From assembly GCA_027592275.1 (NCBI GenBank), contig JAQCKF010000001.1:1-64000 (forward strand): 64,000 bases of DNA. Reading direction: 5' to 3'. This stretch comes from Pseudomonadota bacterium. Lineage in GTDB: Bacteria; Pseudomonadota; Gammaproteobacteria; Pseudomonadales; Pseudohongiellaceae. The position numbers were made by a program, and so were the translations under genes. Numbering within the stretch: position 1 is the first letter of the stretch; every line of letters begins with the position of its first letter. This document shows, piece after piece, positions 1 to 15,248 of this stretch. A model generated the notes under the pieces. The model did no database searches. It was not told the DNA's origin and was given only the letters and a program-made list of their open reading frames with translations.

Positions 1-762
1 CACCGAGAGCTTTTCGAAGCCAGTAATGCGGCTCGGCGCGTAAGTAGTAGCTGCTGCCAGTGAATCGACGGTCAGGAAGAATGTATCTTCGCCAGCTCCG
101 CCGGCAACCAAATCGCTAACGTTGAACGTGTCGTCAGCTGCAGTTGTTGAGTCTGTAGCAAACGCCTGGTCATCGCCAGCACCCAGAGTTTTGTTGTCCA
201 AACCTGTAGTGAGCGTATAAGTGCTGCCTGCGACTGAGGCGCTAGTTGTGCTTGCAGTTGCATTCGCTGCAGTAACAGTCGCGTCATCGCTAGTTACGCT
301 TGCGATCGCTGTAGTGCTTACATCGGCTTGCTCTAGAGTTAGTGTGTAGTAAGTAGCAACTTCTACTTTGTTATTAAAATTAGCAGCGTATGTACCTATG
401 GCCGTATCAGCTTCATCAAGCTTTGCCAGAAATTCAACTGATATGCGAACTACGTCAGCGCGAGTTCCGCCAGCGGCTAGCAAGCCCTCAACGATAGTTA
501 CGCCTTCGGCAAGCGCAGCGGCAGAAACGCCAGGAAGAAGGTTTGCAAGAAATTCCTCACCAAACTCAGCAGCTGTTTGGAAAGATGGGTAGGTTGCATT
601 GAATGTATCGCTAGTTGTCAGAATAGTCGCGATTTCGGCAAGAGACTTGCCCGCTTCAGACTTTGCAACCAATGATGTTAATAGAGTTGTACCAGGTGCC
701 GCGTTATACGCGCCAACTACCATTTCTATGATGGATTTACGTGTATCAGCTGTTATAGCCAT
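1..762 (-). CDS. S-layer-like / T1SS-exported surface protein, N-terminal part (C-terminus beyond window edge)
   Basis: Open frame on the minus strand from ATG at 762 to the window edge, absent from the ORF track because it is open-ended; AAGGAG RBS upstream. Begins MAITADTRKSIIEMVVGAYNAAPGTTLLTSLVAKSEAGKSLAEIATIL..., then low-complexity T/A/D/G-rich LTTGLDNKTLGAGDD...DTFNVSDLVAGGAGEDTFFLTVDSL...RITGFEKLSV, typical of S-layer/bluetail-type T1SS substrates. Confidence 0.75.
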   Translation of the reverse strand, partial: MAITADTRKSIIEMVVGAYNAAPGTTLLTSLVAKSEAGKSLAEIATILTTSDTFNATYPSFQTAAEFGEEFLANLLPGVSAAALAEGVTIVEGLLAAGGTRADVVRISVEFLAKLDEADTAIGTYAANFNNKVEVATYYTLTLEQADVSTTAIASVTSDDATVTAANATASTTSASVAGSTYTLTTGLDNKTLGAGDDQAFATDSTTAADDTFNVSDLVAGGAGEDTFFLTVDSLAAATTYAPSRITGFEKLSV

Positions 763-858
763 TTGTTACTCCTTGAGATGAAATCGATTTCATATTTTTT
801 TTCCAATGGTATGGCAGATACTCAGGCACTGCTCCCATCATCGGTATAGCTATCATAA

Positions 859-914
859 TCAGTACATCCCGTTGCCTATGTGATTAGAATCACATAGGCA
901 ACGGGATGTACTGA
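859..914. repeat. Perfect 27-bp inverted repeat with 2-nt spacer
   Basis: TCAGTACATCCCGTTGCCTATGTGATT (859-885) / AG / AATCACATAGGCAACGGGATGTACTGA (888-914), read directly. Confidence 0.95.
879..894. promoter_or_regulatory. CRP-type operator TGTGATTAGAATCACA
   Basis: Exact TGTGA-N6-TCACA at the centre of the 27-bp inverted repeat, upstream of the S-layer-like gene. Confidence 0.7.
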
Positions 915-1129
915 GAATTCTTTTTACATCCAAACAACATCACTCACACAGCGCGAGCAATAGAAGACATCGGCGGATAGTACAAGCTCTTGAGCGCTAA
1001 AACAACTATCGCTCCCTTTTTCTCACAGTATTACGCTAAATCCTTCTTTTGTTAGTGATTTTTGCTGAAATTTACGGCCTTTATAGGCCAGTAGATTGTG
1101 ACGAAATTGAGAGGCTTAAAATTGAGAGC

Positions 1130-2524
1130 CTAGAAAACCCAGCCAAAGCCTAGCGCAGCACTGGTATCTTTACTTCGGAACAACTCCAGGTTGCTGCGTT
1201 GCCGCTGATGATAGACGTTAATCATGAAATTAGCGCTGCTGCCCAACAGGTGGACAGGTCGCCTATACTCCAGTAAGAGGTAGCTGCGTTTTAGGGAACG
1301 TTTTGCACCCTCTTTCAGCAAGGGGCTGTAGCCTCTTCTATCTTCTATGTTGGTATGGCTAAGTTGAGCGCGTAGCGAGGCTGTCTGCAGGCTGTATTGC
1401 CAGCTTAGATTCGACTTCCAGGCGACTCTATCGCCACCTAGCCTGTCGCTATTGGCGGCAAAGTTATTAATTCGGCCCAAGTCCACACGGAGTTGCTGCC
1501 GCCCAGCACTGCCAAATTGTGGGCAGCTAACCCCTAGCGAAGCCTCGGTTTCCAAGCCGTCCAGGCGGTTTTCTCGGTGAAAGTCTTGATGTTGAACGGC
1601 TAGCTGGGAATAAGGGTTGCAGCGGCGATCACTTCCCAGCTGATAGCGAAAGCTGCTATCGAGCCCGGTAAACAGTGAGCTGCCCCCGTACTGGAGATGG
1701 TTCACGCCGGCAGCTGCCTGCCAGGAGTTGGTCCTACTTGGCTTCAGAAACTGATAGCTAGCGGCGAATTGCAATAGGTCGGACTGCGAATATTCGCTGT
1801 TGCGCGAACGTATCTCCGCTCCCCAGTTTTGTTGGCTCTCGGGGGCCAGTTGCCGCTGCTGATACGCTGCTCGCGTACTCAGATAGCCGCCACTGTGCGG
1901 TCTGAATTCAGGGTCGAGGCCTAGCTGAATGGGCTCCCCGGACAGGGTAAGGGTAATTTGCCCGGAATCCGGTGCGCCGTTGAGGTTGTTGTCATAACCG
2001 GCGAGTACCTCGGCCTGTAAGCTGGATTGACGGGTAAAGGCTCGCCACCGCTCTTGCCGGCTCTGCAGTGCAGCGTCGATGCCTTCAGGCAGATCTTCTC
2101 GTGCTATTAATTGTTGGTTCATCTCCAGCGCCGTAAACAGCTGGCCTTCTTCAAACAGCGCCTGAGCATAATCGATGGCGGCGGCGCCATTTCCTGGATT
2201 GAGCAGCAACGCCCTCTCGAGCGATTCCAGCGCGCCGGCAAGGTCCGAGTTACTGAGCTGGGCCGCACCATAGAGCGCGAAGAATTCGGAACTTTCCAGG
2301 CATTGGGCTAGCAGTTGGCTGATTTGCTGCTGCAAGGCGGCCGAATCGGCCTCTTCAGCTTGATAGAAGGCGGACAGATCGGGGCAGGCAGCGAAGGCGC
2401 TAAGGGGGAGCGAGCCTAGGGCTAGGAGAAATACCCACTGTAGGCGCTTGGCTACAGACCTTGCGAGCCTGATTTGCTTGTTCAATTCCGCGGTCATCCC
2501 TGAGTTAACTGGCTCATTAGTCAT
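1130..2524 (-). CDS. Periplasmic TPR domain plus outer-membrane beta-barrel protein (Slam/DUF560-like architecture)
   Basis: 464 aa; signal-like N-terminus, TPR-like repeats (SNSDLAGALESLERALLLNPGNGAAAIDYAQALFEEGQ), then alternating aromatic beta-strand pattern ending in GFGWVF. Confidence 0.65.
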   Translation of the reverse strand: MTNEPVNSGMTAELNKQIRLARSVAKRLQWVFLLALGSLPLSAFAACPDLSAFYQAEEADSAALQQQISQLLAQCLESSEFFALYGAAQLSNSDLAGALESLERALLLNPGNGAAAIDYAQALFEEGQLFTALEMNQQLIAREDLPEGIDAALQSRQERWRAFTRQSSLQAEVLAGYDNNLNGAPDSGQITLTLSGEPIQLGLDPEFRPHSGGYLSTRAAYQQRQLAPESQQNWGAEIRSRNSEYSQSDLLQFAASYQFLKPSRTNSWQAAAGVNHLQYGGSSLFTGLDSSFRYQLGSDRRCNPYSQLAVQHQDFHRENRLDGLETEASLGVSCPQFGSAGRQQLRVDLGRINNFAANSDRLGGDRVAWKSNLSWQYSLQTASLRAQLSHTNIEDRRGYSPLLKEGAKRSLKRSYLLLEYRRPVHLLGSSANFMINVYHQRQRSNLELFRSKDTSAALGFGWVF

Positions 2525-2585
2525 TGCGGCGATTATGGGTAATCACAGGGCTGCCTGCAATGTGAACAGGGGATAGAGTAAAAAA

Positions 2586-4607
2586 TTATCGCCGGCCACC
2601 GCTAAGCAAGCGCAGGTTTGGCTGAGAAGAGGAGTCGCCGGTGTCTTCGGGCTCGCCCAGGGACGGTGCGAAAAGAACATGGGGGGTCTTCAGGCCGCTT
2701 AGCAGATAGCTGCCTTGGGACTGCAGGGATTCGTCACGAAGCTGCCGCGCTGCACACTCGCCTATTAATACGGGCTGGGCAAGCTCGGCTGTCATTTCCT
2801 GAATGCGCAATACGACAGATACGGTTTCGCCTAGCAGGGCATGGGTACGGCGGTGTGCCGGGCCAATAGAGCCTATTAGCACTGGGCCCTGCTCTATGCC
2901 TATACCCAGAGCCATAGGCTCCAAGCCTTCCAGGGCATGTTCCGGCAACAGGTTTCGATAGACCGAGGCCTGCATCTCCTGACCTGCCGCCAGTGCCTGC
3001 GCCGCAGATTTTTGGTTATAGCCATCCCAAACGGCTAACAGGCTGTCGCCCTTAAATTCATGCACTCGCCCGCCATGGCGTTCGATGATTTCGGCGGCAC
3101 GGGTAAAGAAGTAGTGCAGCACAGCCGCAGGCTCTTCCGGAGGCCTGGATTCACTGAAGGCGGAAAAGTTACGCAGGTCGGCGCTTAACAGCGTCACATC
3201 ACAGCGCTGCGCGTTAATGCTAGAGCTGGGCAGGCTATAGGCTATCTCCCTGGCGATGTTGTCAGGCAGATAGCTATTCAAATTGGTATAGACACGGCTG
3301 CGCTCTGAACGCACCCTGCTAAGCTCAAACAATAGCAGAAAGCTGCCGGCTAAGGCGCCATAGAGGGCGGGGAAGAACCAGCCTAGCCAGAGATCTGCAC
3401 TTTGCAATAAAACCAGATGCAGTGTCAGTGCCGCAACGGGCAACAACACCGAAGCGATGGGCAGGCCATAGGCCTTGATGCGATCGCCGCTCAGGGCCAG
3501 CCGGTAAAGCGCCAGAGAAAATAGCAGACAAAGAAGGCCTTGAAGCATATTGGCACTGCGTGGCGTATAGGGCACTGCCATATCCAATAAGCTGCCCAGC
3601 ATGCGAGCCTGCAGCTCCACGCCGGTTGCTGCGCCGTTATAAGGCGTGGGCACTATGTCACCCATGCCAAAGGCCGTGCCGCCAATTAGCACCCAGGCAT
3701 TGTCGAGTAATCCGGAGTCGATATTGCCATTGATAACATCCACCGCAGATACGGCGGTATAGGCTGCGGGATCCTTGGCGAAGGAGATTCTCAGATTGCC
3801 ATCGCGGTCCAGCGGAACATCGAGGCCGGGGTAGGCATCAAACTTTAAAATATACGCCGGGTCCAGCGGGGAGCTGCCAGAGTCGATGGAGGCCTGCCAG
3901 GGACTGAAGTTGCTTGCCTGCAGGAAGGCAGTTAGCGCAAGTGCCGGATAGGCCTGCCCGTCTGCACAAACGATCGCGGGGGCTTTGCGCACTGCGCCAT
4001 CGGTGGAGATGATAGGGGTGATGTGGCCCTTAGGAACCGCGGCAAAGCCGCTGTGTGGAGCAAGATAGCCATTGGCAAGCGGCAGCGGCAGGCCCGTAGC
4101 TGCACTATTACAGCTAATACCTGAAATTGGGTGCGTCATTTGGCCCGCAGTGACACGTTGCCCGAGCTGGAGGGCCAGCACCTGAGCGATCACGGCACCG
4201 CGGGCATTTTGCAAGGAAGCAAGAAGCACATCGTCGCCGGGCCTTGCCTCAGGATAGACTATATCGTGAAGCTGCAGCTGGGCGCCGGCGGCATCAATCG
4301 CGTCTACTAAGGTAGCGATTTGATCTCTAGCCCAGGGCCAAGGACCTACTTCGGCCAGGCTTGCTTCATCGATAGCGACTATAATAATGCGTTCTTCAGG
4401 GGCTGTCTGAGGCGACAAGGTCCACCCTCTGGCGCCCAGACGCTCTTCCAGATTGACCAGGGTAGCACCGGAAACTAGAAAGAGACCCGAGCACAGCAAT
4501 AAGGCCGCAAGCAACACCAACAGGCGCGCCGCTGCTGGCGTAAGCTGCAGTAAAAAATGCAGAGGGTTGGCTGCTGTGTGAGTAGAGTCAGGCATACTAC
4601 TGGCCAT
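2586..4607 (-). CDS. CHASE2 domain-containing class III nucleotide cyclase
   Basis: 673 aa; extracytoplasmic CHASE2-like region (IIIVAIDEASLAEVGPWPWARDQIATLVD), TM helices, then cyclase domain (LLSADLRNFSAFSE...VHEFKGDSLLAVW...LLGETVSVVLRIQEM). Confidence 0.85.
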   Translation of the reverse strand: MASSMPDSTHTAANPLHFLLQLTPAAARLLVLLAALLLCSGLFLVSGATLVNLEERLGARGWTLSPQTAPEERIIIVAIDEASLAEVGPWPWARDQIATLVDAIDAAGAQLQLHDIVYPEARPGDDVLLASLQNARGAVIAQVLALQLGQRVTAGQMTHPISGISCNSAATGLPLPLANGYLAPHSGFAAVPKGHITPIISTDGAVRKAPAIVCADGQAYPALALTAFLQASNFSPWQASIDSGSSPLDPAYILKFDAYPGLDVPLDRDGNLRISFAKDPAAYTAVSAVDVINGNIDSGLLDNAWVLIGGTAFGMGDIVPTPYNGAATGVELQARMLGSLLDMAVPYTPRSANMLQGLLCLLFSLALYRLALSGDRIKAYGLPIASVLLPVAALTLHLVLLQSADLWLGWFFPALYGALAGSFLLLFELSRVRSERSRVYTNLNSYLPDNIAREIAYSLPSSSINAQRCDVTLLSADLRNFSAFSESRPPEEPAAVLHYFFTRAAEIIERHGGRVHEFKGDSLLAVWDGYNQKSAAQALAAGQEMQASVYRNLLPEHALEGLEPMALGIGIEQGPVLIGSIGPAHRRTHALLGETVSVVLRIQEMTAELAQPVLIGECAARQLRDESLQSQGSYLLSGLKTPHVLFAPSLGEPEDTGDSSSQPNLRLLSGGRR

Positions 4608-6030
4608 TCCAAAGCGTTAAACCCTGGATGTCTCCGTGCTGCAGTTGTTGCTCAAAAAAGTATCCGGCTTCGGTGCCATCGAGGCTAACCGCTCCGGCGA
4701 TCCGCTGGCTTTCTGTGCGGCTATGGAAGTAGCCCCCATCGAACAACCGGCCGCTGGCCACGAATTCAAGCTCACCGGTCAGGCTGTGACTCAGATTGAG
4801 CAGAGTGGCAAAGCTGTTTTCCTGAAAGTCTATATCCAGCGTGCCGCCGCCGACTTTCATCGCCACCACACCGCTGGAAGAATTATAGAAAGCCTGGGCA
4901 CTGCTTAATCCAAAGCTGACAACGGTAAGGCCTTTGTCCAGACGTTTGCTGCCATTTTCGCTGCGAAACAAGCCATAGTCGAGGTTGCCCACAGTCACTT
5001 CTCTTCCATTTCGAGCCTCATCGTAGGAGAGAGTGATGCGCTCCTGAGCATCGAGCCCGCCGTTGCTATAGCGCCCCCAGATCAGCTGTCGATCGGCTGC
5101 ATCGGCAATCGCTATGGCCTGGGTGGGTGTAAAATTAGCTGGCAGCTGACTCGCCGATTTTGCAAGATCGCTAGCGGCATTGTCTGTTACGAGAACCGCC
5201 GACAGCTCTTCGACACGCACCCCGTTATCCTCGGTGCTAGACGCTTCGTCAGCGCCTTGTGATCTGCGAATCGCCTGCTGAACCCCGGTGCGCATTGCTG
5301 TCATATTTTGCGCATCGGTTGCAGGGACAAGACGTGGCAGGGGCGTGCTGCCGTCCAGTTCGATGACTTCCATCGTTGCGCTGGACAGCTCTATGGAATT
5401 AGTGCTGCAGGGGCCGAAGGCATCGGCGCGGCAGTCTTCAGAAAACGGCGCCAGTACTATGGAGCCTTCATTTACCAGGGCTCTGGTACTGCCGGCTTTC
5501 GCGCTGACGGTAAAATCTGTGCCTCGCACGCCGATAGCGGCAATAGGTGTATTCAGGCGAAAGCGCTGGCGTGCCGCCTTGGCAGCCTTGCCGGAGATAG
5601 CCCGGGTTATGCCTTCGATCAGATCAAATTTGACTGTAGAAAGCGCCGGACGGGCAGGATCGTAGTCGTAGCGCGTTATTTCGAGGCGGCTATCTGGCCT
5701 TACGCTAACCAGGGCATCGTCTACAAAGCGGATGTGAACATGGCCGTTAGCGGACGTCACGATCTGGTCATGGACTGTAACCTGAGAGCCTGGCTTCACT
5801 GCTCGGGACAGCTTGCCCGAGCCGGACTCGATAGTCGCCCTGCCAAGAACCAGGCTTACCGTTCCCACCAATGCCGCAGGTTCTGTACCGGCTTGCTGCT
5901 GTTCTGACGTTTCAAGGCCATAAGTAGGCGTCGCTAGCAGGACGAGAATGAGCCCCGCAGAGGCAAATACGGCCTTGACGCCAATGAATCTGGCGTTTTT
6001 AACGAGCTTGATGAAGTGCCGATTAATCAT
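4597..6030 (-). CDS. FecR domain-containing periplasmic protein
   Basis: 477 aa with signal segment and FecR hallmark RQRFRLNTPIAAIGVRGTDFTVSA; overlaps the start of the cyclase gene by 11 bp. Confidence 0.85.
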   Translation of the reverse strand: MINRHFIKLVKNARFIGVKAVFASAGLILVLLATPTYGLETSEQQQAGTEPAALVGTVSLVLGRATIESGSGKLSRAVKPGSQVTVHDQIVTSANGHVHIRFVDDALVSVRPDSRLEITRYDYDPARPALSTVKFDLIEGITRAISGKAAKAARQRFRLNTPIAAIGVRGTDFTVSAKAGSTRALVNEGSIVLAPFSEDCRADAFGPCSTNSIELSSATMEVIELDGSTPLPRLVPATDAQNMTAMRTGVQQAIRRSQGADEASSTEDNGVRVEELSAVLVTDNAASDLAKSASQLPANFTPTQAIAIADAADRQLIWGRYSNGGLDAQERITLSYDEARNGREVTVGNLDYGLFRSENGSKRLDKGLTVVSFGLSSAQAFYNSSSGVVAMKVGGGTLDIDFQENSFATLLNLSHSLTGELEFVASGRLFDGGYFHSRTESQRIAGAVSLDGTEAGYFFEQQLQHGDIQGLTLWNGQ

Positions 6031-6234
6031 ATTCTAAACTTTAGGTGTACATTTATTTGAGAACTAGCCGAAATTAAAACCTATGCTGCTAAAAGTGCCT
6101 GGCTATTAATCTGACGGCTACTTTTACTCCCTGCTAACACCACGACTAGCATTACTTAGGGCGCTGTAGCATTAGCATGGCAATACGGCCTAATTCTAAT
6201 AGATGGTAAAATACCTCAGGGGCTGAGGCCGGGG

Positions 6235-6250
6235 CGTGATTCAAATCACA
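6235..6250. promoter_or_regulatory. CRP-type operator CGTGATTCAAATCACA
   Basis: GTGAT-N4-ATCAC palindrome in the divergent fecR/crp intergenic region; matches the 879-894 operator in both half-sites. Confidence 0.6.
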
Positions 6251-6270
6251 TAGCACCACAATACCCGCTT

Positions 6271-6298
6271 TTGCTATTTCATTTCAAGCACTTATAAT
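6271..6298 (+). promoter_or_regulatory. Predicted sigma70 promoter of the crp-family gene (TTGCTA-N16-TATAAT)
   Basis: -35 at 6271-6276, -10 at 6293-6298; operator centre 6242.5 lies about 62 bp upstream of the predicted start site near 6305. Confidence 0.5.
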
Positions 6299-6354
6299 GC
6301 GTCACCAGCCCTATTGAGAGCTGTTATCAGGTTTATGACCGGGCTCTATATTTG

Positions 6355-7056
6355 ATGATAGTCACTCCCGACTTGTTGCGCTCTTTCTCGATTCTGAAGA
6401 CGCTCGCAGACAATGACCTGCTAGGCCTCGCTCAGCAGTCATCCCTACGCAAGTTTACCCGGCGCGGCATCGTGCTGAATGCCGGCGAGAAAGAAGAACA
6501 TGTCTGCCTATTATTTGAAGGCAGGCTACAGGGCGTCGATTTTACCATCGATGGCCGTGAAGTAGGCCTGTATTTTGTGCAGCCTGGAGAGTTTTGCGGT
6601 GAGTTAGGATTGTTCGACCGTGGCCCACAGCCTGAATACGTTATCGCCTTAACGCCTTCCGTCGTTGTGTTCGTGCCAATGAGCGGCCTGCGGGAAATAA
6701 TGAACAAGACCCCCACTGTTGCCAATACCCTGGGGCTAAAACTGGCAGACCGAGTCAGGCAGATGATTTTTCAGCGCTCCTTGCTTGGCTTGCCGAATAT
6801 TCCGCAACGTGTGTGTTGCCAGCTGTGGGCGTTAGTGCCTAATAAGGACAAAGAATCCGATGCCGCCAGCGCTATTGCAAACCCGCCAACACATATGGAA
6901 ATAGCGATCATGCTAAGTATGAGCAGGGAGACGGTCACCCGCGTATTTCAGACTTTACAAAAGCGGCAGATAGTAAGACGGGACGGGTCTGCGAATTTGA
7001 TCATTAACGAAGTCAAAATATTAAAAGATATTGCTGAAGGAAAGGAATCGATCTAA
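6355..7056 (+). CDS. Crp/Fnr family transcriptional regulator
   Basis: Cyclic-nucleotide-binding fold (GEFCGELGLFDRGPQPEYVIA) and HTH with SRETVTR recognition helix. ORF track start at 6352 is TTG; ATG at 6355. Confidence 0.9.
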   Translation: MIVTPDLLRSFSILKTLADNDLLGLAQQSSLRKFTRRGIVLNAGEKEEHVCLLFEGRLQGVDFTIDGREVGLYFVQPGEFCGELGLFDRGPQPEYVIALTPSVVVFVPMSGLREIMNKTPTVANTLGLKLADRVRQMIFQRSLLGLPNIPQRVCCQLWALVPNKDKESDAASAIANPPTHMEIAIMLSMSRETVTRVFQTLQKRQIVRRDGSANLIINEVKILKDIAEGKESI

Positions 7057-7225
7057 ATAATTTCCTCCTTGGGCTTTACGCTTGGGCTAAGAATTGGCGG
7101 CAGGGTTGAATATCTGCGCTTGCCCCCAATTAAAGGCATCAAGCAGAAAAATTTGGAAACTACTCGAATTTACCAGCAAAACTCGCGGAAATTGCGAATT
7201 AGCAGAGACAAGAAGAATTAGCTAA

Positions 7226-8947
7226 ATGAATCAGAATAGCAAGACTACGAAATACCCAGAGCTCATTGCGGCATTAAAGGATGTTAAGAGTTACTTTATC
7301 CTTGCAGGCGTGTTCAGTGCCGCCATCAATATATTGATGCTGGTTCCAGTGATCTATATGCTGCAGGTATACGACCGGGTGATGTCCAGCGGGAGTCTTT
7401 CCACACTCACCAGCCTAACCCTGATCATGACAGCTCTGCTGATGGCAATGGGTGGTTTCGAATGGGTTCGTTCAAGAATATTAATCAGTGCCAGCAACCG
7501 AATCGAGAAAAATCTGCGTAAACGGGTTTCGGAAGCCGCGTTTAAACACTCTCTGTTGTCCGGCGGTGGAAGCGCTCAGCCGCTAGCCGACCTCACAGGT
7601 CTGAGGCAATTTCTGACGGGTAATGGCCTGTTCGCCTTTTTTGATGCTCCCTGGTTTCCCATCTATGTCGGCATAATGTTTATGTTTCACAGCTGGTTCG
7701 GCGTCTCGGCAATCATCGCCGGAATCATCATGGTTGCCCTGGCCTATACTAATGAAATCATGACCAGCAAGCGATTACAGGAGGCTAACACCCTCTCAAA
7801 CAAGGTGTCGAATCAACTAGGCGGCAGCCTACGCAACGCCGAAGTCATCGCCGCCATGGGGATGTCAGATGACATCAGGAACCGTCAAGAGGCTGGCTCA
7901 GATCAAGTTCTGTCACTGCAGACAGAAGCCAGCAGCCGAGCGGCAATAGTCGCCAATGTCTCAAAGTCCTTTCGCATGATCGTGCAATCGCTGCTGCTGG
8001 GTATGGGAGCGCTGCTGGCGCTTCGAGGAGAAATTTCTCCGGGGATGGTTATCGCAGGCTCCCTATTACTGGGGCGAGCACTCGCACCAATCGACCTGCT
8101 GGTGGGCACATGGAAGGGCTTTTCCATTGCCAGGGCCCAATATGCGCGGCTGGGGGAATTATTACTGGCCATACCGGCGGAGCAGGAGACCATGAGTCTT
8201 CCTGCTCCGGAAGGAAAGCTGAGTGCGGAACAGGTTGTAGTGTTTCCGCCGGGATCACAATTACCAGCTGTTAAAGGCGTGAGCCTGCAGTTGGATGCCG
8301 GAGAGGTTTTGGGTATTGTCGGACCAAGCGCTTCTGGCAAATCCAGCTTGGCGCGCGCCTTACTGGGAATCTGGCCAGCCCGCTCCGGCAAGGTTCGTCT
8401 GGATGGCGCCGACATTGCTATCTGGAACCGAGCCGAACTAGGCCCTCACATTGGCTATTTGCCCCAGGATATCGAGCTGTTTAGTGGCTCCATATCCGAG
8501 AATATTTCACGCTTCGGCGAGCTCTCGCCGGAGAAGATCGTCGCCGCCGCCAAGCTCTCGGGGGTGCATGAAATGATACTCGGCCTTCCCCAGGGCTACG
8601 ACACTGTGATTGGCGGTGTCGGTGGCGTTTTATCTGGCGGTCAGAGGCAGAGGATCGGGCTGGCGCGAGCGGTTTACGGTAACCCCAAGCTGATGATACT
8701 GGATGAGCCCAATTCCAATCTTGACGACCAGGGGGAAAAAGAATTGGTGGAGGCCATAAACCGAATCAAGCAGATCGGATGCACGGTAATAGTCATTACC
8801 CATCGTACGATGGTGCTGCAGTGTGTGGACAAGATACTCGTAATGAAGGATGGCGTGGCAGCAGCATTTGGGCCAAAAGATCAGGTTCTCGCCAGCTTGA
8901 TGGCTCCTGCCAAAACGCCGGCACCGGCTATAGCCAGCGGCGGATAA
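7226..8947 (+). CDS. Type I secretion system permease/ATPase (PrtD-like ABC transporter)
   Basis: 573 aa; TM domain plus Walker A GPSASGKSS, signature LSGGQRQRIGLARA, Walker B LMILDEPNSNLD. Confidence 0.92.
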   Translation: MNQNSKTTKYPELIAALKDVKSYFILAGVFSAAINILMLVPVIYMLQVYDRVMSSGSLSTLTSLTLIMTALLMAMGGFEWVRSRILISASNRIEKNLRKRVSEAAFKHSLLSGGGSAQPLADLTGLRQFLTGNGLFAFFDAPWFPIYVGIMFMFHSWFGVSAIIAGIIMVALAYTNEIMTSKRLQEANTLSNKVSNQLGGSLRNAEVIAAMGMSDDIRNRQEAGSDQVLSLQTEASSRAAIVANVSKSFRMIVQSLLLGMGALLALRGEISPGMVIAGSLLLGRALAPIDLLVGTWKGFSIARAQYARLGELLLAIPAEQETMSLPAPEGKLSAEQVVVFPPGSQLPAVKGVSLQLDAGEVLGIVGPSASGKSSLARALLGIWPARSGKVRLDGADIAIWNRAELGPHIGYLPQDIELFSGSISENISRFGELSPEKIVAAAKLSGVHEMILGLPQGYDTVIGGVGGVLSGGQRQRIGLARAVYGNPKLMILDEPNSNLDDQGEKELVEAINRIKQIGCTVIVITHRTMVLQCVDKILVMKDGVAAAFGPKDQVLASLMAPAKTPAPAIASGG

Positions 8948-9019
8948 AGCCGCTTGAAGAATTTAGCAAACAGAAAATAAACTCTCACCGCTTAATGGTG
9001 AATCTACTGGGAATTAGCC

Positions 9020-10357
9020 GTGATAGAGAATAAACCCGCCGCGTCAAAGGCGGACAACACAGAGGAGCTGGCGCACGTCGATACCAGCATGCAGATTCCG
9101 GTAAGGACCGGTCTAATTATCTTTTCCCTAGTGTTTGGAGTCTTCGGCTTTTGGGCCGCATTTGCACCTTTAGATTCCGCAGCACACTCCTCAGGCGTGG
9201 TGACTGTTGAATCCTACAAGAAGGTAATCCAACACCTCGAAGGGGGTATAGTCGGCCAGATCCTGGTGCGCAATGGCGACGTCGTCAAGGCGGGAGATAC
9301 GTTACTTGTGCTTAGTAACACGCAGCCTCTGGCACAGCTGGAGATTGCCAAGACACTGTTTGTGGCGCTAAAAGCCAGAGAGGCTCGTCTGCTGGCGGAG
9401 AGCGGCGGTAGCGAATCCATCGCCTTCGCTCCGGTGCTTTTGGAAGAGGGGTATGATGCTCAAGCCGAAATAGCTTCAGAGAGACAGATTTTCGTTGCCC
9501 GCAAGGCCGCTCGCGATGGCGAGGTGGAAGTTTTGGAGCAGCGTACGGAGCAACTGGCGTCCCAAGTTACCGGCCTGGAAGCTGTGCGTACAAGCAAGCT
9601 TGAACTGGCGGCATCATTTTCAGAAGAGCTTGTGGATGTGCAAGCGCTGCTCGATCAAGGCTTCGCCAACAAGCAACGACTTCGAGAACTGCAGCGTAGC
9701 TATTCTTCGTATACAGGTGAAGCGGCAGATTTGACCGCCAATATTTCCACGACTGAAATGCAAATTGGTGAGACTCGCCTGCAGATATTGCAACAGGATA
9801 AAAATTTCCTGAACGAGGTGGTAAGCGAGCTCGCTGAAGTCCAAAATCGGTTGAAAGACACCGAGGAGCGGATGATCGCCCTACAGGACATTGTTCGTCG
9901 AACAGCCATAACGACTCCGGTAGACGGCATTGTTAACGGCATGCAAGTGCATGGCGTGGGCGAGGTAGTAAAACCCGGTGCAAACATTACCGAGGTGGTT
10001 CCCCAGACCGATGAACTCATTATCGAAGCAAATGTCTCCCCAATCGATATCGATCGAGTAGCTGAGGGACAGGAAGCCACCATTACCTTTTCTGCCTTCA
10101 GCAGTGGCTTGATGCCTACTATCTATGGCACCGTGATAGGAATCTCTGCCGACAGATTGATCGATCAAACTAACGGAGCCCCTTACTATCTCGCGCGAAT
10201 TGAAGTCACGGAAGAGGGTATGGCTGATATGGGTGACCTGGTACTCGTTCCTGGGATGCCCGCCGAAGTATTTATTAATGCCGGTACGAGAACATTCCTG
10301 CAATATGTGCTTAAACCCTTTACCACTGCCCTCAGCCGCAGCTTTATTGAAGACTAA
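9020..10357 (+). CDS. Type I secretion HlyD-family membrane fusion protein
   Basis: 445 aa, GTG start; HLEGGIVGQILVRNGDVVKAGDTLL, coiled coil, AITTPVDGIVNGMQVHGVGEVVKPG. Confidence 0.92.
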   Translation: MIENKPAASKADNTEELAHVDTSMQIPVRTGLIIFSLVFGVFGFWAAFAPLDSAAHSSGVVTVESYKKVIQHLEGGIVGQILVRNGDVVKAGDTLLVLSNTQPLAQLEIAKTLFVALKAREARLLAESGGSESIAFAPVLLEEGYDAQAEIASERQIFVARKAARDGEVEVLEQRTEQLASQVTGLEAVRTSKLELAASFSEELVDVQALLDQGFANKQRLRELQRSYSSYTGEAADLTANISTTEMQIGETRLQILQQDKNFLNEVVSELAEVQNRLKDTEERMIALQDIVRRTAITTPVDGIVNGMQVHGVGEVVKPGANITEVVPQTDELIIEANVSPIDIDRVAEGQEATITFSAFSSGLMPTIYGTVIGISADRLIDQTNGAPYYLARIEVTEEGMADMGDLVLVPGMPAEVFINAGTRTFLQYVLKPFTTALSRSFIED

Positions 10358-10363
10358 TCAGAC

Positions 10364-11707
10364 ATGAAAGACTCTATCAGATGGCTTTTTTGCCTTAGCT
10401 TCGCGTCGAGTATTTCGATGGCGAGTATTGCTCAAGATTATGACTCTACGGGAATAACAGGGACAACACTCGAGGATTTTTTCAGCGCTGCCATCGATTA
10501 CAGTCCCCAGCTCAAGATCGCCGAGGAGCGGTTAAACATCGGTTCTGCGCGCACCAGCGCCGCCAAGGGTCAACTGCTTCCGCAACTAAGGGCCAATGCA
10601 AGCAGATCCGATAACCGCCGCAATGCATTAGGTGCAGTAGATACCTTCGATGGAGAACGTTACTCCATCACGCTGACTCAGGTACTGTTTAACTGGCAGG
10701 CATTTTCCGCGCGCAATGAAGCGTCCCTGCTAGAGGACCAGTTCGAAGCCGAGTATTTCGGAGAACTGGCATTTCTGTTAACCGATGTTGCCGAAAAGTA
10801 TTTTGATGTGTTGTTAGCAAGTGATGCCCTGAACTCTATAGCCAGTGAGTTAGATGCGGTGAGCAATCAGCTGGATCAGATTCAGAGTATGTATGACCGC
10901 CAACTGGCACAGATTACCGATTTGTACCAGGCCCAGGCGAGCCTCGCGGCGGTTGAGGCACAACAGCTACAGTTGCAAACTGAGCTGGCGATGCGACGCG
11001 AAGCCCTGCGTTCAGCCAGCGGTGTAGAAAGCGGGGATTTATACCGATTAAGCGACGAGACGAATATTCCGCCACTTGAGAACAGCATCAACTATTGGGT
11101 GCAACAGGCCGAGGAAAACAATCATCAGATTAGCGCCAGAGAGTACGCCGTGGAAGCTGCCGACAAGCGCATCGACCAGCGGCGTGGCGCTTATATGCCA
11201 CAGGTAAACTTCGTCGTTCAGCGCCAGGACTCCGATGTGGGTTTCGATAATAGACCCCAAGACAGAACTGATAATACCTATATTGGCCTGGATGTAACCA
11301 TTCCTCTGTATGCCGGCGGCAGTAATCGTGCTGGGGTTAGAGAAGCGACCAGCCAGCGCAGGATTGCCGAAAGCGAGCTGCGCCAGGTGCAACTTCAAGC
11401 TAATGAGAGAGTCCGCTCTGCGTATTTGCAGGTGCAGTCGGCTGAAACCATGATCGAGGCCGCCCGCAAATTGCTGGAATCGACAGAACTTACCTCCACC
11501 GCCATGCAGCGCGGTTTTGAACTCGGCGCGGTGACGAATGTGGATGTGTTAAATGCACTGCGTGATCAATTTCGAGCGGAGCGAGACCTGCAGAGAACTC
11601 GCTATGACCAAGTGAAATTTCTGCTTCTTCTAAAAAGAGAAGCCGGGTTGCTGAGCGCAGATGACATGCTTGAAGTTGGCGGTTGGCTCGAGCCTGCTGG
11701 CAATTAG
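10364..11707 (+). CDS. TolC family outer membrane protein
   Basis: 447 aa; signal peptide, TolC repeats (YSPQLKIAEERLNIGSARTSAAKGQLLPQL), VTIPLYAGGSNRAGVREA. Confidence 0.92.
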   Translation: MKDSIRWLFCLSFASSISMASIAQDYDSTGITGTTLEDFFSAAIDYSPQLKIAEERLNIGSARTSAAKGQLLPQLRANASRSDNRRNALGAVDTFDGERYSITLTQVLFNWQAFSARNEASLLEDQFEAEYFGELAFLLTDVAEKYFDVLLASDALNSIASELDAVSNQLDQIQSMYDRQLAQITDLYQAQASLAAVEAQQLQLQTELAMRREALRSASGVESGDLYRLSDETNIPPLENSINYWVQQAEENNHQISAREYAVEAADKRIDQRRGAYMPQVNFVVQRQDSDVGFDNRPQDRTDNTYIGLDVTIPLYAGGSNRAGVREATSQRRIAESELRQVQLQANERVRSAYLQVQSAETMIEAARKLLESTELTSTAMQRGFELGAVTNVDVLNALRDQFRAERDLQRTRYDQVKFLLLLKREAGLLSADDMLEVGGWLEPAGN

Positions 11708-11711
11708 ATCT

Positions 11712-12242
11712 ATGCTTGAGCTACATCGTCTCACCACTGAATATATTCAAATCGAAGATCGTTTTCGCCTTACCGGCGAAGATCAGCAAGGTAGGGCTCT
11801 GTGTCTTTGGTTAACACAGCGGCTCGCACTCAGAATTGTTGCCCATCTGGTGGATGCTATTGCCACTAGTTCCCCTGAGGCTATTCAGAACCCAAGCCAG
11901 GATCAAGATGTTAGCAAACTGCTTCAAAGCTTTGCCCAACAAGCAGCAGCTGCCGACTTATCGCCACAGGCTGCAGTACAAAGCAGTGCTGCTACGCAGT
12001 CCATGCTGATCAATGAAGTAGATATTACCCGCGCTGAGGGCGGGGCAGTTGGCCTGGTTTTCAAGAATCATGAAGAAATAAAAGTCGCTCTCAGTTTTCA
12101 ACTACAGCAATTGCGACAATGGCTATCCATTATTCATGCTCAATGGATAAAAGCGGAGTGGCCTAACTCTATTTGGCCTGAATGGATAGGCGAAAAAGCT
12201 CAACCGGTGGACTCGACAGATCCCAGTAATCCACTGCACTAA
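11712..12242 (+). CDS. Hypothetical protein linked to the type I secretion operon
   Basis: ATG at 11712 immediately after the TolC stop; 176 aa (MLELHRLTTEYIQIEDRFRLTGEDQQGRALCLWLTQRLALRIVAHLVDAI...); upstream part of the ORF track entry (from 11661) overlaps tolC and is unlikely to be translated. Confidence 0.75.
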   Translation: MLELHRLTTEYIQIEDRFRLTGEDQQGRALCLWLTQRLALRIVAHLVDAIATSSPEAIQNPSQDQDVSKLLQSFAQQAAAADLSPQAAVQSSAATQSMLINEVDITRAEGGAVGLVFKNHEEIKVALSFQLQQLRQWLSIIHAQWIKAEWPNSIWPEWIGEKAQPVDSTDPSNPLH

Positions 12243-12297: not shown

Positions 12298-13026
12298 CTA
12301 GAAGTACAAATCGATAATATTGTGGGTAACTTCTTGCAGAGATAATTGCAGTTGCTCACGGGAATAGTGATAGAAACCCTCTGCATGACTGACCTGGGAA
12401 TCTAAGGTAAATGTTCGTCCCTTGTCCAACGCGAGGACGAGTTCTTCGTAGTTGTTCTCTTCATTTTGGCTCCCATAGACTGTCATTGCCTGTTCCTTAC
12501 GCGGCCTCTGGGCAGTGATGTCGATGAATAGATTGACTGGATTCTGTACGCCGATTTCATAGGAATAGGCATTGGTTCGGGCTGCCGCTTTCCCTAATTT
12601 TTGCACTGCCGACCATACTAATAGAGCTGTATTGCGGTGATCTGGATGCAACTCCAGCGGCCCAGGAAAGAAGATACTAGCTACACCAAGCTCACTAATT
12701 TTCTGACAAACTCTTTCTACGAGAGCTGCACTTACTGTCAGCCCACGGTCCGGCTGTTGCCAACTATCGACGCTGCTAATCCCTAAAATTTTTGCTGCCT
12801 GCTGCACTTCCTTGTTTCTTACATCCGCCAGACTTTCAGCGCTTCCGCCCAAGGCACCATCAGTCAATACCACCAGATGCGTCTGAATACCCTCTGCGTG
12901 TGCCTTCAGTAGGCTGCCGGCCATACCATAGGTCTCATCGTCGGCATGGGGTGCGAATACTAGCCAGGGTCCGCCCGGCAGCGGGGATGTCTCGAAGGGG
13001 ATGAGTATGTGTTCGGGATTTAGCAT
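12298..13026 (-). CDS. PIG-L/LmbE family deacetylase
   Basis: 242 aa; VFAPHADDETYGMAGSL and ELHPDHRNTA metal-site motifs. Confidence 0.9.
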   Translation of the reverse strand: MLNPEHILIPFETSPLPGGPWLVFAPHADDETYGMAGSLLKAHAEGIQTHLVVLTDGALGGSAESLADVRNKEVQQAAKILGISSVDSWQQPDRGLTVSAALVERVCQKISELGVASIFFPGPLELHPDHRNTALLVWSAVQKLGKAAARTNAYSYEIGVQNPVNLFIDITAQRPRKEQAMTVYGSQNEENNYEELVLALDKGRTFTLDSQVSHAEGFYHYSREQLQLSLQEVTHNIIDLYF

Positions 13027-13196
13027 GGTGAGCAGTATAAATCAGCTTGGTAAAAATTGTTGAATGCCGTGATTATAAGGGCTTGGAGCGGTAATTTTTA
13101 GTTTTTTCAGGCAATTCGTGGTTAAATTCGCAGCCTCACAATAGAACTAATTAGCAGACTCTTTTACTAACTACTAAGCACAATACTGGATCGGGA

Positions 13197-14003
13197 ATGC
13201 TACTTACTCTGCTACGTGAATGGATGCTGACACCGTTCACTCATTACCGACTCTTCCATAATTTCGCGAGACAGGATTTCCTGGCCCAATTCACGGCATC
13301 CATAGGCGGCTTTCTGTGGCTGATCATCACGCCGATCATCCACATCATGATCTATGCCTTCGTGTTTGGTGTTCTTTTTGGTCAGCGACCAGCGGCGGGA
13401 TTCGAAGAGAGCACGTTTGTCGTGTTCATGATGGTTGGCTACCTACCTTGGTTTGCCTTTGCCGACTCCATTGGTAAATCCACTGGTCTACTAATCGAGA
13501 AGGCGCCGTTAATCACCAAGGTGAAATTTCCAGTACAGATTATTCCCGTTGTGGGGTCGGTAATTCCCTATTTAACACACGCCATAGGCTTCGGCATACT
13601 GTTGGCGTACCTGGCCACTCAGGGTTACTGGAATTGGATGTGGTTCTATCTACCGGTTATCTTCTTCTTCCAGTTTTTATTCACATTGGGCTTGGTGGCT
13701 ATTCTCTCAGCGCTAAGTGTCTTCCTTCGCGATTTACAGCAATTGGTTGCTCTGGGCATCACCATCTGGTTTTTCCTAACGCCGATAATTTGGCCAATAT
13801 CTATTATCGAAGACGAGGCGCAGCGAGACATATTTTTGTTAAATCCCATGCATAGCTTCGTTAGCCTGTATCGTGAGATCGTTCTTCTAGGTCAGGTTAC
13901 GTTTATTCATCTGATAATAATAATCCCCGTCTCAATCATTACTTACTTTTTTGGTGGTTGGTTATTCATGAAGATCAAACAGGCGTTCGGCGATGTCCTC
14001 TAG
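13197..14003 (+). CDS. ABC-2 polysaccharide export permease (Wzm-like)
   Basis: 268 aa; 6-TM ABC-2 protein, LFGQRPAAGFEES..., typical O-antigen/capsule exporter permease followed by its ATPase. Confidence 0.88.
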   Translation: MLLTLLREWMLTPFTHYRLFHNFARQDFLAQFTASIGGFLWLIITPIIHIMIYAFVFGVLFGQRPAAGFEESTFVVFMMVGYLPWFAFADSIGKSTGLLIEKAPLITKVKFPVQIIPVVGSVIPYLTHAIGFGILLAYLATQGYWNWMWFYLPVIFFFQFLFTLGLVAILSALSVFLRDLQQLVALGITIWFFLTPIIWPISIIEDEAQRDIFLLNPMHSFVSLYREIVLLGQVTFIHLIIIIPVSIITYFFGGWLFMKIKQAFGDVL

Positions 14004-14030
14004 TTTACTTTTCCATAGCAGGAGTTAACT

Positions 14031-15248
14031 ATGCCTCGCGTATCTGTTCAGAATCTGAATAAGGATTTTAAAATTTATGAGCGACCTCAGGACAGGTTGT
14101 ACGAAATTATTCTGCGCGAGCAGCGGCACCAGCTTTACCATGTGCTGAGTGATATATCGTTCGCCGTTCCGGACGGCAAGAGCCTAGGAATCATCGGCGA
14201 CAACGGTGCTGGCAAATCGACTCTACTCAAACTTTTAGTTGGGACTCTACAACCCACCAGCGGCGAGATCACAATCGAAGGACAAGTCGCAGCACTACTG
14301 GAACTCGGCGCAGGTTTTCACCCGGAGTTTACTGGACGCAAGAACATCTATCTGAACGCGGCTCTATTAGGCGTGCCCGATGACAACATCGCCGAGATGG
14401 AGAGAGACATTATTGCGTTCTCCGAGCTCGACTATTTTATCGATAGACCAGTTAAGACTTACTCATCGGGCATGTATGTTCGACTCGCGTTCTCTATCGC
14501 GACAATGGTGCGCCCAGATATCCTCGTCATCGATGAGGCCCTGTCGGTTGGTGACATGGCGTTTCAGAAGAAGTGTGTGCAACGCATGAATGAGTTTCGT
14601 GAGCAGCGCAAGACCATGGTGTTCTGTAGCCACTCCATGTTTCACGTACAAGAGCTCTGCGATATCGCCATCTGGTTAGATAAAGGCAAGATTCAGGAGA
14701 TCGGCGACAGCGACAAGGTGGTGGGACACTACGAAGACTTCTGCAACAACAAGAAAACCTATAGCAGCATTAGAGAAGACATCCCCGGGGAGCTGCGTGC
14801 ATCCGAAGCTGCACAAAAAGAAGAGGTGCAGGACTGCCGTATCAACTCACTCTCTGTTAAGTCACTAGAGGGTAATGATATCACCACCATCAAGCCGCTT
14901 AGTGACGTGCTGCTGGAAATGGAAGTAGAGGTTCTAGTAGATAATATGGAGGGGCATTTCGGTTTCGCCTTCATGAAGTCTGCCGAGGAGCCGATTGCTT
15001 CCTTCCTTACTACCAATGGCGATGAGATAGAGATTGGTTCATTCGCCAAGGGAGACGTTTTTAAGGTCTCCCTTGTTGTCGAGAAGGTCGCCATGCGAGT
15101 AGGGGAGTTCTATGTGCTGGGTGGTCTTGCCGATAAGAGTGGCCTGCTGTGGTATGAGACCAAGTTCAGTAAGCTGCTAGCCATGGAGCCGAACAAGGGT
15201 GTCGGGCCGATGATCATGAAATGCGTGTGGCAGCTCGATAAAGACTAG
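14031..15248 (+). CDS. Polysaccharide export ATP-binding protein with C-terminal Wzt-like domain
   Basis: 405 aa; Walker A GDNGAGKST, VAALLELGAGFHPEFTGRKNIYLNAALLG, YSSGMYVRLAFSIATMVRPDILVIDEALSVGD; extra ~150 aa C-terminal domain. Confidence 0.9.
   Translation: MPRVSVQNLNKDFKIYERPQDRLYEIILREQRHQLYHVLSDISFAVPDGKSLGIIGDNGAGKSTLLKLLVGTLQPTSGEITIEGQVAALLELGAGFHPEFTGRKNIYLNAALLGVPDDNIAEMERDIIAFSELDYFIDRPVKTYSSGMYVRLAFSIATMVRPDILVIDEALSVGDMAFQKKCVQRMNEFREQRKTMVFCSHSMFHVQELCDIAIWLDKGKIQEIGDSDKVVGHYEDFCNNKKTYSSIREDIPGELRASEAAQKEEVQDCRINSLSVKSLEGNDITTIKPLSDVLLEMEVEVLVDNMEGHFGFAFMKSAEEPIASFLTTNGDEIEIGSFAKGDVFKVSLVVEKVAMRVGEFYVLGGLADKSGLLWYETKFSKLLAMEPNKGVGPMIMKCVWQLDKD

Follow-up and report, generated by a model that had tools for sequence, protein, structure and literature searches.

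Introduction

Several described systems resemble parts of the locus analyzed here. In Rhodospirillum centenum, the Crp homologue CgrA is encoded together with the guanylyl cyclase genes gcyB and gcyC in a cGMP circuit, binds TGTGA-N6-TCACA, and activates the cyclase genes as well as itself (PMC4681086). In Campylobacterota, clusters have been described that join a CHASE2 cyclase with FecR-domain and TPR proteins and a phosphodiesterase, and that description mentions no Crp-like gene, operators or secreted cargo (PMC9239204). The Crp-type regulator Clr of Sinorhizobium meliloti, described with CyaD1, CyaD2 and CyaK, is activated by both cAMP and cGMP; CyaD1 bears a CHASE2 domain, the target gene SMc02177 encodes a FecR-domain protein, and no secretion-system cluster is described (PMC5498481, PMC10127613). 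Finally, RsaA-type S-layers with a type I secretion system (T1SS) are found in Caulobacter and in Methylomicrobium album (Metal_0877-0880), with the PrtD, HlyD and TolC genes next to that of an RTX-type surface protein; the M. album paper mentions no FecR/CHASE2/Crp module (PMC13274458).

The locus studied here, from a marine member of the Pseudohongiellaceae, shares the Crp homologue and neighboring cyclase gene with the CgrA circuit, but has two sites where the CgrA regulon is broad (295 ChIP peaks, cyst development; PMC4681086), and unlike it contains FecR, CHASE2 and barrel genes and an atypical phosphate-binding cassette. As in Campylobacterota, a CHASE2 cyclase occurs with FecR-domain and TPR proteins; unlike there, no phosphodiesterase gene was seen in the window cluster. 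The combination of a Crp-type regulator with CHASE2 and FecR domains recalls S. meliloti. As in M. album, T1SS genes lie by an RTX-type surface protein with polysaccharide genes nearby (PMC13274458), although here lattice formation is putative. Cyclase-Crp loops acting through the same operator (CgrA) and CHASE2-cyclase/FecR/TPR clusters (Campylobacterota) are thus already known; no open-access paper was found that joins a CHASE2-cyclase/FecR/TPR set to its own Crp-like gene and to T1SS cargo. In the open-access literature we found no account of a FecR/CHASE2/Crp/T1SS S-layer circuit.

Organization of the locus

The analyzed stretch of DNA (the window) is the first 64 kb, from base 1, of contig C1 in a genome of 3.2 Mb. 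The first-pass annotation had described two divergent gene series, with fecR, cyclase, TPR/barrel and S-layer-like genes on the minus strand and a Crp/Fnr-type regulator, T1SS and small-protein genes on the plus strand; places, strands and domains were all confirmed (Table 1). Profile searches gave E-values of 4e-12 for FecR (PF04773), 6e-38 for CHASE2 (PF05226) and 1e-9 for Guanylate_cyc (PF00211), and the regulator has cNMP_binding and HTH_Crp_2 domains. The crp gene is present as annotated, but its proposed TTG start at 6352 is less likely than the ATG at 6355, since orthologues mostly begin M-x-V-T-P-E-L-L.

Table 1. Features of the cluster. Positions are those of the window, except in the last row.
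Feature	Position	Strand	Basis or remark
S-layer-like / RTX-type secreted protein, N-terminal 254 aa only	1..762	-	gene cut by contig start
TPR + 14-strand outer-membrane barrel protein	1130..2524	-	domain match + predicted structure (pLDDT 87)
CHASE2 class III cyclase, atypical active site (HEFKGD; GETVSVVLR)	2586..4607	-	domain matches + alignment
FecR-domain protein	4597..6030	-	domain match; 11-nt overlap with cyclase
Local Crp/Fnr-type regulator, QPE cassette	6355..7056	+	domain matches + alignment + structure model
T1SS permease/ATPase, PrtD type	7226..8947	+	TIGR01842, 737 bits
T1SS membrane fusion protein, HlyD type	9020..10357	+	TIGR01843, 358 bits
TolC-family outer-membrane protein	10364..11707	+	TIGR01844 220.9 bits (cut-off 225, just under); PF02321
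Small protein, no family match	11661..12242	+	kept in about half of loci (19/40)
Predicted S-layer-like gene promoter: -10 TATGAT 857-852, start near 845	845..857	-	TAnnnT conservation
Perfect inverted repeat, 27-bp arms, around operator 1	859..914	.	common to nearest relative L034 only
Operator 1, TGTGATTAGAATCACA	879..894	.	centre at -41.5 of S-layer-like gene; at least 9/10 in 33/34
Predicted fecR -10 box TATTTT, start near 6201	6208..6213	-	TAnnnT at +29.5 in 38/39
Operator 2, TGTGATTTGAATCACG on fecR strand	6235..6250	.	-41.5 of fecR, about -62.5 of crp
Predicted crp -10 TATAAT, start near 6305	6293..6298	+	TATAAT-like box conservation, 21/32
Crp-type sites upstream of Wzm-like gene (Marinomonas)	18920 (L172), 18798 (L175)		on reverse-complemented loci; no clear -10 at class II offset

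The window copy of the S-layer-like gene is truncated by the contig start, and its C-terminus is therefore known from relatives only. Complete copies there are mostly 720-1560 aa long and share a conserved N-terminal domain; of five proteins of relatives that were scanned, four contain RTX repeats (PF00353), the window copy being incomplete. The T1SS neighbor and these repeats, seen in relatives, are RsaA-like traits; solved S-layer proteins gave no sequence match to the window protein, and the S-layer label of the secreted protein is one that we infer from sequence. In the nearest relative (L034:2868-6819) the gene is split over several frames, through either assembly errors or decay.

The barrel protein is predicted to consist of an N-terminal helix (signal), TPRs and a 14-strand barrel. 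A fold search returned as nearest solved folds BcsC (PDB 9b8a), which likewise combines TPRs with a barrel, and OmpG (PDB 2iwv), likewise a 14-strand barrel; at ~10% identity, with partial alignment, poor superposition and a short TPR region in the window protein, these likenesses do not amount to a family assignment. Membership of the Slam (surface lipoprotein assembly modifier) group was not supported: TPR_Slam matched weakly, in 2 of 27 members of the barrel family only (E about 0.07).

The small protein gene overlaps tolC by 47 nt, and is placed elsewhere in L039, L050, L055 and L062. A PIG-L deacetylase and a Wzm/Wzt-like ABC pair (12298-15248) follow 3' of the T1SS genes, also in many relatives; these genes recall the LPS genes beside Caulobacter rsaA and possibly provide an anchor polysaccharide for the surface protein.

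Conservation of the gene cluster

We sampled 99 Pseudohongiellaceae genomes and studied gene order in 40 loci. Cyclase orthologues occur in about two thirds of the genomes, with 50-97% identity in the 40 loci; the culturable Pseudohongiella nitratireducens also has the cyclase locus (L145), and the order S-layer-like/barrel/cyclase/fecR/crp/ABC/MFP/TolC is kept in nearly all loci, as far as contigs permit. The few rearrangements include an inversion of the T1SS genes in L065 and of the S-layer-like gene in L068. The first-pass annotation had named missing co-occurrence in relatives as grounds for giving up its reading. Co-occurrence is conserved: both local crp and cyclase are present in 67 genomes and neither in 27, against five mismatches (cyclase only in one, regulator only in four), although many genomes are draft or metagenome-assembled and the sequences are related, so that counts are not independent events. 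In all four regulator-only cases the contig breaks off within or close to the neighboring genes. Fisher's test, which ignores relatedness, gave p 6e-19. In an order-wide sample the regulator was found only in Pseudohongiellaceae and one other genus, and a class-wide sample held only distant cyclases, of which the three with readable motifs carry the ordinary Lys and Asn.

Operators and promoters

Crp-type operators had been read upstream of the regulator and of the S-layer-like gene. Both are real and far above chance in relatives, where the best upstream match averages 9.85/10 for the S-layer-like gene and 8.8/10 for fecR/crp, versus ~6.8 in shuffles; the stretches ahead of the ABC, MFP, barrel and PIG-L genes match at chance level. 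A TGTGA-N6-TCACA site scoring at least 9/10 precedes the S-layer-like gene in 33 of 34 sequences, most often 118-133 nt ahead of its start codon, and TAnnnT occurs at +29.5 from the site centre in 29/33. Upstream of fecR, a site of this type was found in 39 of 41 sequences, with TAnnnT at +29.5 in 38/39; for either operator, every other offset has a mean below one. This offset and the usual distance from -10 box to start place both operators at -41.5, the class II position of E. coli Crp; all promoter positions here derive from conservation. The "regulator-upstream" site thus has position -41.5 relative to the divergent fecR promoter and about -62.5 relative to that of crp.

In the crp direction, a TATAAT-like box puts the start 60.5-62.5 from the operator 2 centre in 21 of the 32 sequences with a recognizable box, a predicted distance that is close to the class I position. 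Autoregulation of crp is not universal, because some relatives have no clear crp -10 box near operator 2. The last base of operator 2 on the fecR strand is non-A in 38/39, which suggests that a weaker site is maintained. Control of the T1SS genes by the regulator, also proposed at first, would be indirect at best, as these genes have no operator of their own in most relatives.

Two relatives (L053:14208 and L054:13768) carry an extra, perfect TGTGAN6TCACA ahead of the T1SS ATPase gene, at a distance of ~170-180 nt. The L059-L061 group has a 9/10 site upstream of the T1SS genes. The inverted repeat at operator 1 lies just upstream of the predicted start, and in L034 both arms carry changes that leave pairing intact.

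Cyclase and regulator

Both metal-binding Asp residues (SADLRNF and GD in the alignment) and the catalytic Arg are present in 41/41 cyclases. The position that specifies the base holds Glu in all 41, not the ATP-specifying Lys of adenylate cyclases; chain 2w01 aligns with Glu there, and the second base-recognition position is Ala, Thr or Val, as usual in guanylate cyclases. The transition-state Asn is replaced by Thr, Ser, Ala or Gly in all 41, and the cyclases L212 and L213 of the own genome keep it. Judged by these residues, the local cyclase is not of adenylate-cyclase type. Guanylate cyclases carry Glu where adenylate cyclases have Lys, and one natural cyclase whose transition-state Asn is replaced by Ala is active (PMC4215837), so activity of the local cyclase is possible. 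PADLOC models for PycC and its effector match here, as they may match any class III cyclase or cNMP domain; an anti-phage Pycsar system was rejected, given the lack of an effector and a neighborhood made up of a secretion cluster. A second CHASE2 cyclase of the own genome (G000:C19, L189:4372-6730) is split within the CHASE2 domain into overlapping frames of 258 and 532 aa.

We aligned the regulator to Crp via Mycobacterium and Corynebacterium Crp. It has Gln-Pro-Glu (QPE) in place of Glu-Arg-Ser in the cassette, of which the Glu (GEL) is kept; the phosphate-anchoring Arg is Pro in the orthologues (Thr in one), followed by an invariant Glu. The Thr/Ser adenine contacts of Crp are Met or Leu (Thr127-equivalent) and Thr or Ile in the regulator. 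With 66 bits against a cut-off of 266, it does not reach the Crp model NF008732. Its predicted structure (pLDDT 91) matches Crp-family structures, and the recognition helix S-R-E-T-V-T-R fits the Crp pattern R-E-x-x-x-R, with RETVTR, RESVSR and RERVTR among orthologues. It is the cassette Arg that secures the cyclic phosphate, and among regulators that have other ligands non-canonical cassettes are found (PMC2246266). Loss of this Arg and of the adenine contacts means that the regulator may bind no cyclic nucleotide, while conservation of the remodeled pocket (QPE, FCGEL) across two families suggests a kept function.

The ordinary cyclase-nucleotide-regulator link that had been assumed is not supported, as the phosphate-anchoring Arg and adenine contacts are gone and the cyclase departs from the adenylate-cyclase type. 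Since enzyme and regulator both have altered pockets, the messenger, if any, is probably not ordinary cAMP. Control of the regulator by cAMP thus appears unlikely; its input may instead be cGMP or another ligand, or it may be ligand-independent.

Proposed mechanism and alternatives

We propose that the cluster is probably a regulatory module that senses the envelope and has an activator of the Crp family to itself. The regulator would activate the S-layer-like gene from operator 1 (-41.5) and fecR-cyclase-barrel from operator 2, both in class II fashion; at operator 2 it would in most lineages also activate crp itself in a class I-type manner (about -62.5). Autoactivation of crp with read-through into the T1SS genes would then create positive feedback. 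The outer-membrane TPR-barrel and periplasmic FecR proteins may relay an envelope or surface signal to CHASE2 and thereby set the cyclase, and, as the least certain step, the cyclase product might control the regulator via the altered pocket; such a product would more likely be cGMP-like or non-canonical than cAMP. The first-pass interpretation is accordingly upheld for co-occurrence and the local regulator, and falls short on the nucleotide link as stated.

To our knowledge, little has been learned about what turns on S-layers and comparable coats in proteobacteria, and CHASE2 ligands and FecR-cyclase coupling are largely unknown. With two operators, one regulator and one sensor operon, the module offers a compact and testable answer to how a coat is switched. 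With canonical nucleotide motifs gone from both partners, it also becomes directly testable what, if anything, passes from the FecR/CHASE2 cyclase to its Crp-family partner.

A less likely alternative is a ligand-independent regulator, comparable to Crp* mutants or DdrI, with a cyclase that is inactive or signals elsewhere and a linkage due to the same surface being served. The regulator lacks the cassette Arg and has Met or Leu at the Thr127 equivalent, where hydrophobic changes free Crp from its need for cAMP, and DdrI needs no cAMP to bind TGTGAN6TCACA (PMC11253593); the missing transition-state Asn of the cyclase points the same way. Conservation of the QPE/FCGEL pocket in two families, the invariant metal-binding Asp and catalytic Arg residues, and the fact that cyclase and regulator genes almost never part argue against ligand-independence. 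On the proposed module, a further idea that we hold to be unlikely is that the cyclase makes a non-cAMP nucleotide, that the QPE cassette forms a pocket for this or another new ligand, and that the pair changed together. If true, cyclase and regulator would form an unrecognized messenger-receptor pair reporting the envelope state to a two-promoter regulon.

That global cAMP-Crp reads the operators, with the local regulator binding something else, we consider improbable. Following the suggestion to look for a second canonical crp or cyaA, we found a canonical Crp in the own genome (G000:C2:107733, 347 bits), no class I CyaA there, and other class III cyclases, at least three of them with the ordinary Lys motif; the operators equal the Crp consensus. 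However, in 13 genomes where no canonical Crp passes the cut-off, the local cluster is retained wholly or partly, and of ten of their loci examined at length all ten have operator 2 and four a perfect operator 1. Two of these genomes are single-contig (G072 and G078), and in them the fecR and S-layer-like promoters are the only places with TGTGAY-N4-RTCACV; genome-wide in the own genome the operator pattern is near background (66 versus 53 in the control). Because Crp-less clades keep the sites and the recognition helix is of Crp type, the local regulator is the likely reader, and the claim of a dedicated local regulator apart from a global one, here of two operators, is strongly supported by these comparisons.

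Chance proximity of the regulator, cyclase, fecR and S-layer-like genes without regulatory connection, although module and T1SS are separable (T1SS inverted in L065, absent in Marinomonas), is highly improbable and effectively refuted by gene order, co-occurrence (with a p-value that ignores relatedness) and two conserved promoter architectures.

The module in Marinomonas and Neptunomonas

In Marinomonas and Neptunomonas, the fecR-cyclase-barrel genes and the regulator adjoin glycosyltransferase genes and a polysaccharide-type ABC transporter, and no T1SS or S-layer-like gene lies beside the module in these loci. Operator 2 is present in 7/7 loci, with a non-A last base, and a TATTAT-like box is one base nearer to it in most. 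The cyclases carry the same Glu and the same loss of the transition-state Asn. The proposed tie of the module to S-layer export hence holds in Pseudohongiellaceae but not here: since the same four genes sit by polysaccharide genes, the module is not S-layer-specific. It is portable, linked to a protein coat in one family and set in a polysaccharide neighborhood in another. In two Marinomonas loci (L172 and L175), Crp-type sites of 9/10 and 10/10 lie ~150-170 nt upstream of a Wzm-like gene, hinting at direct control of polysaccharide export.
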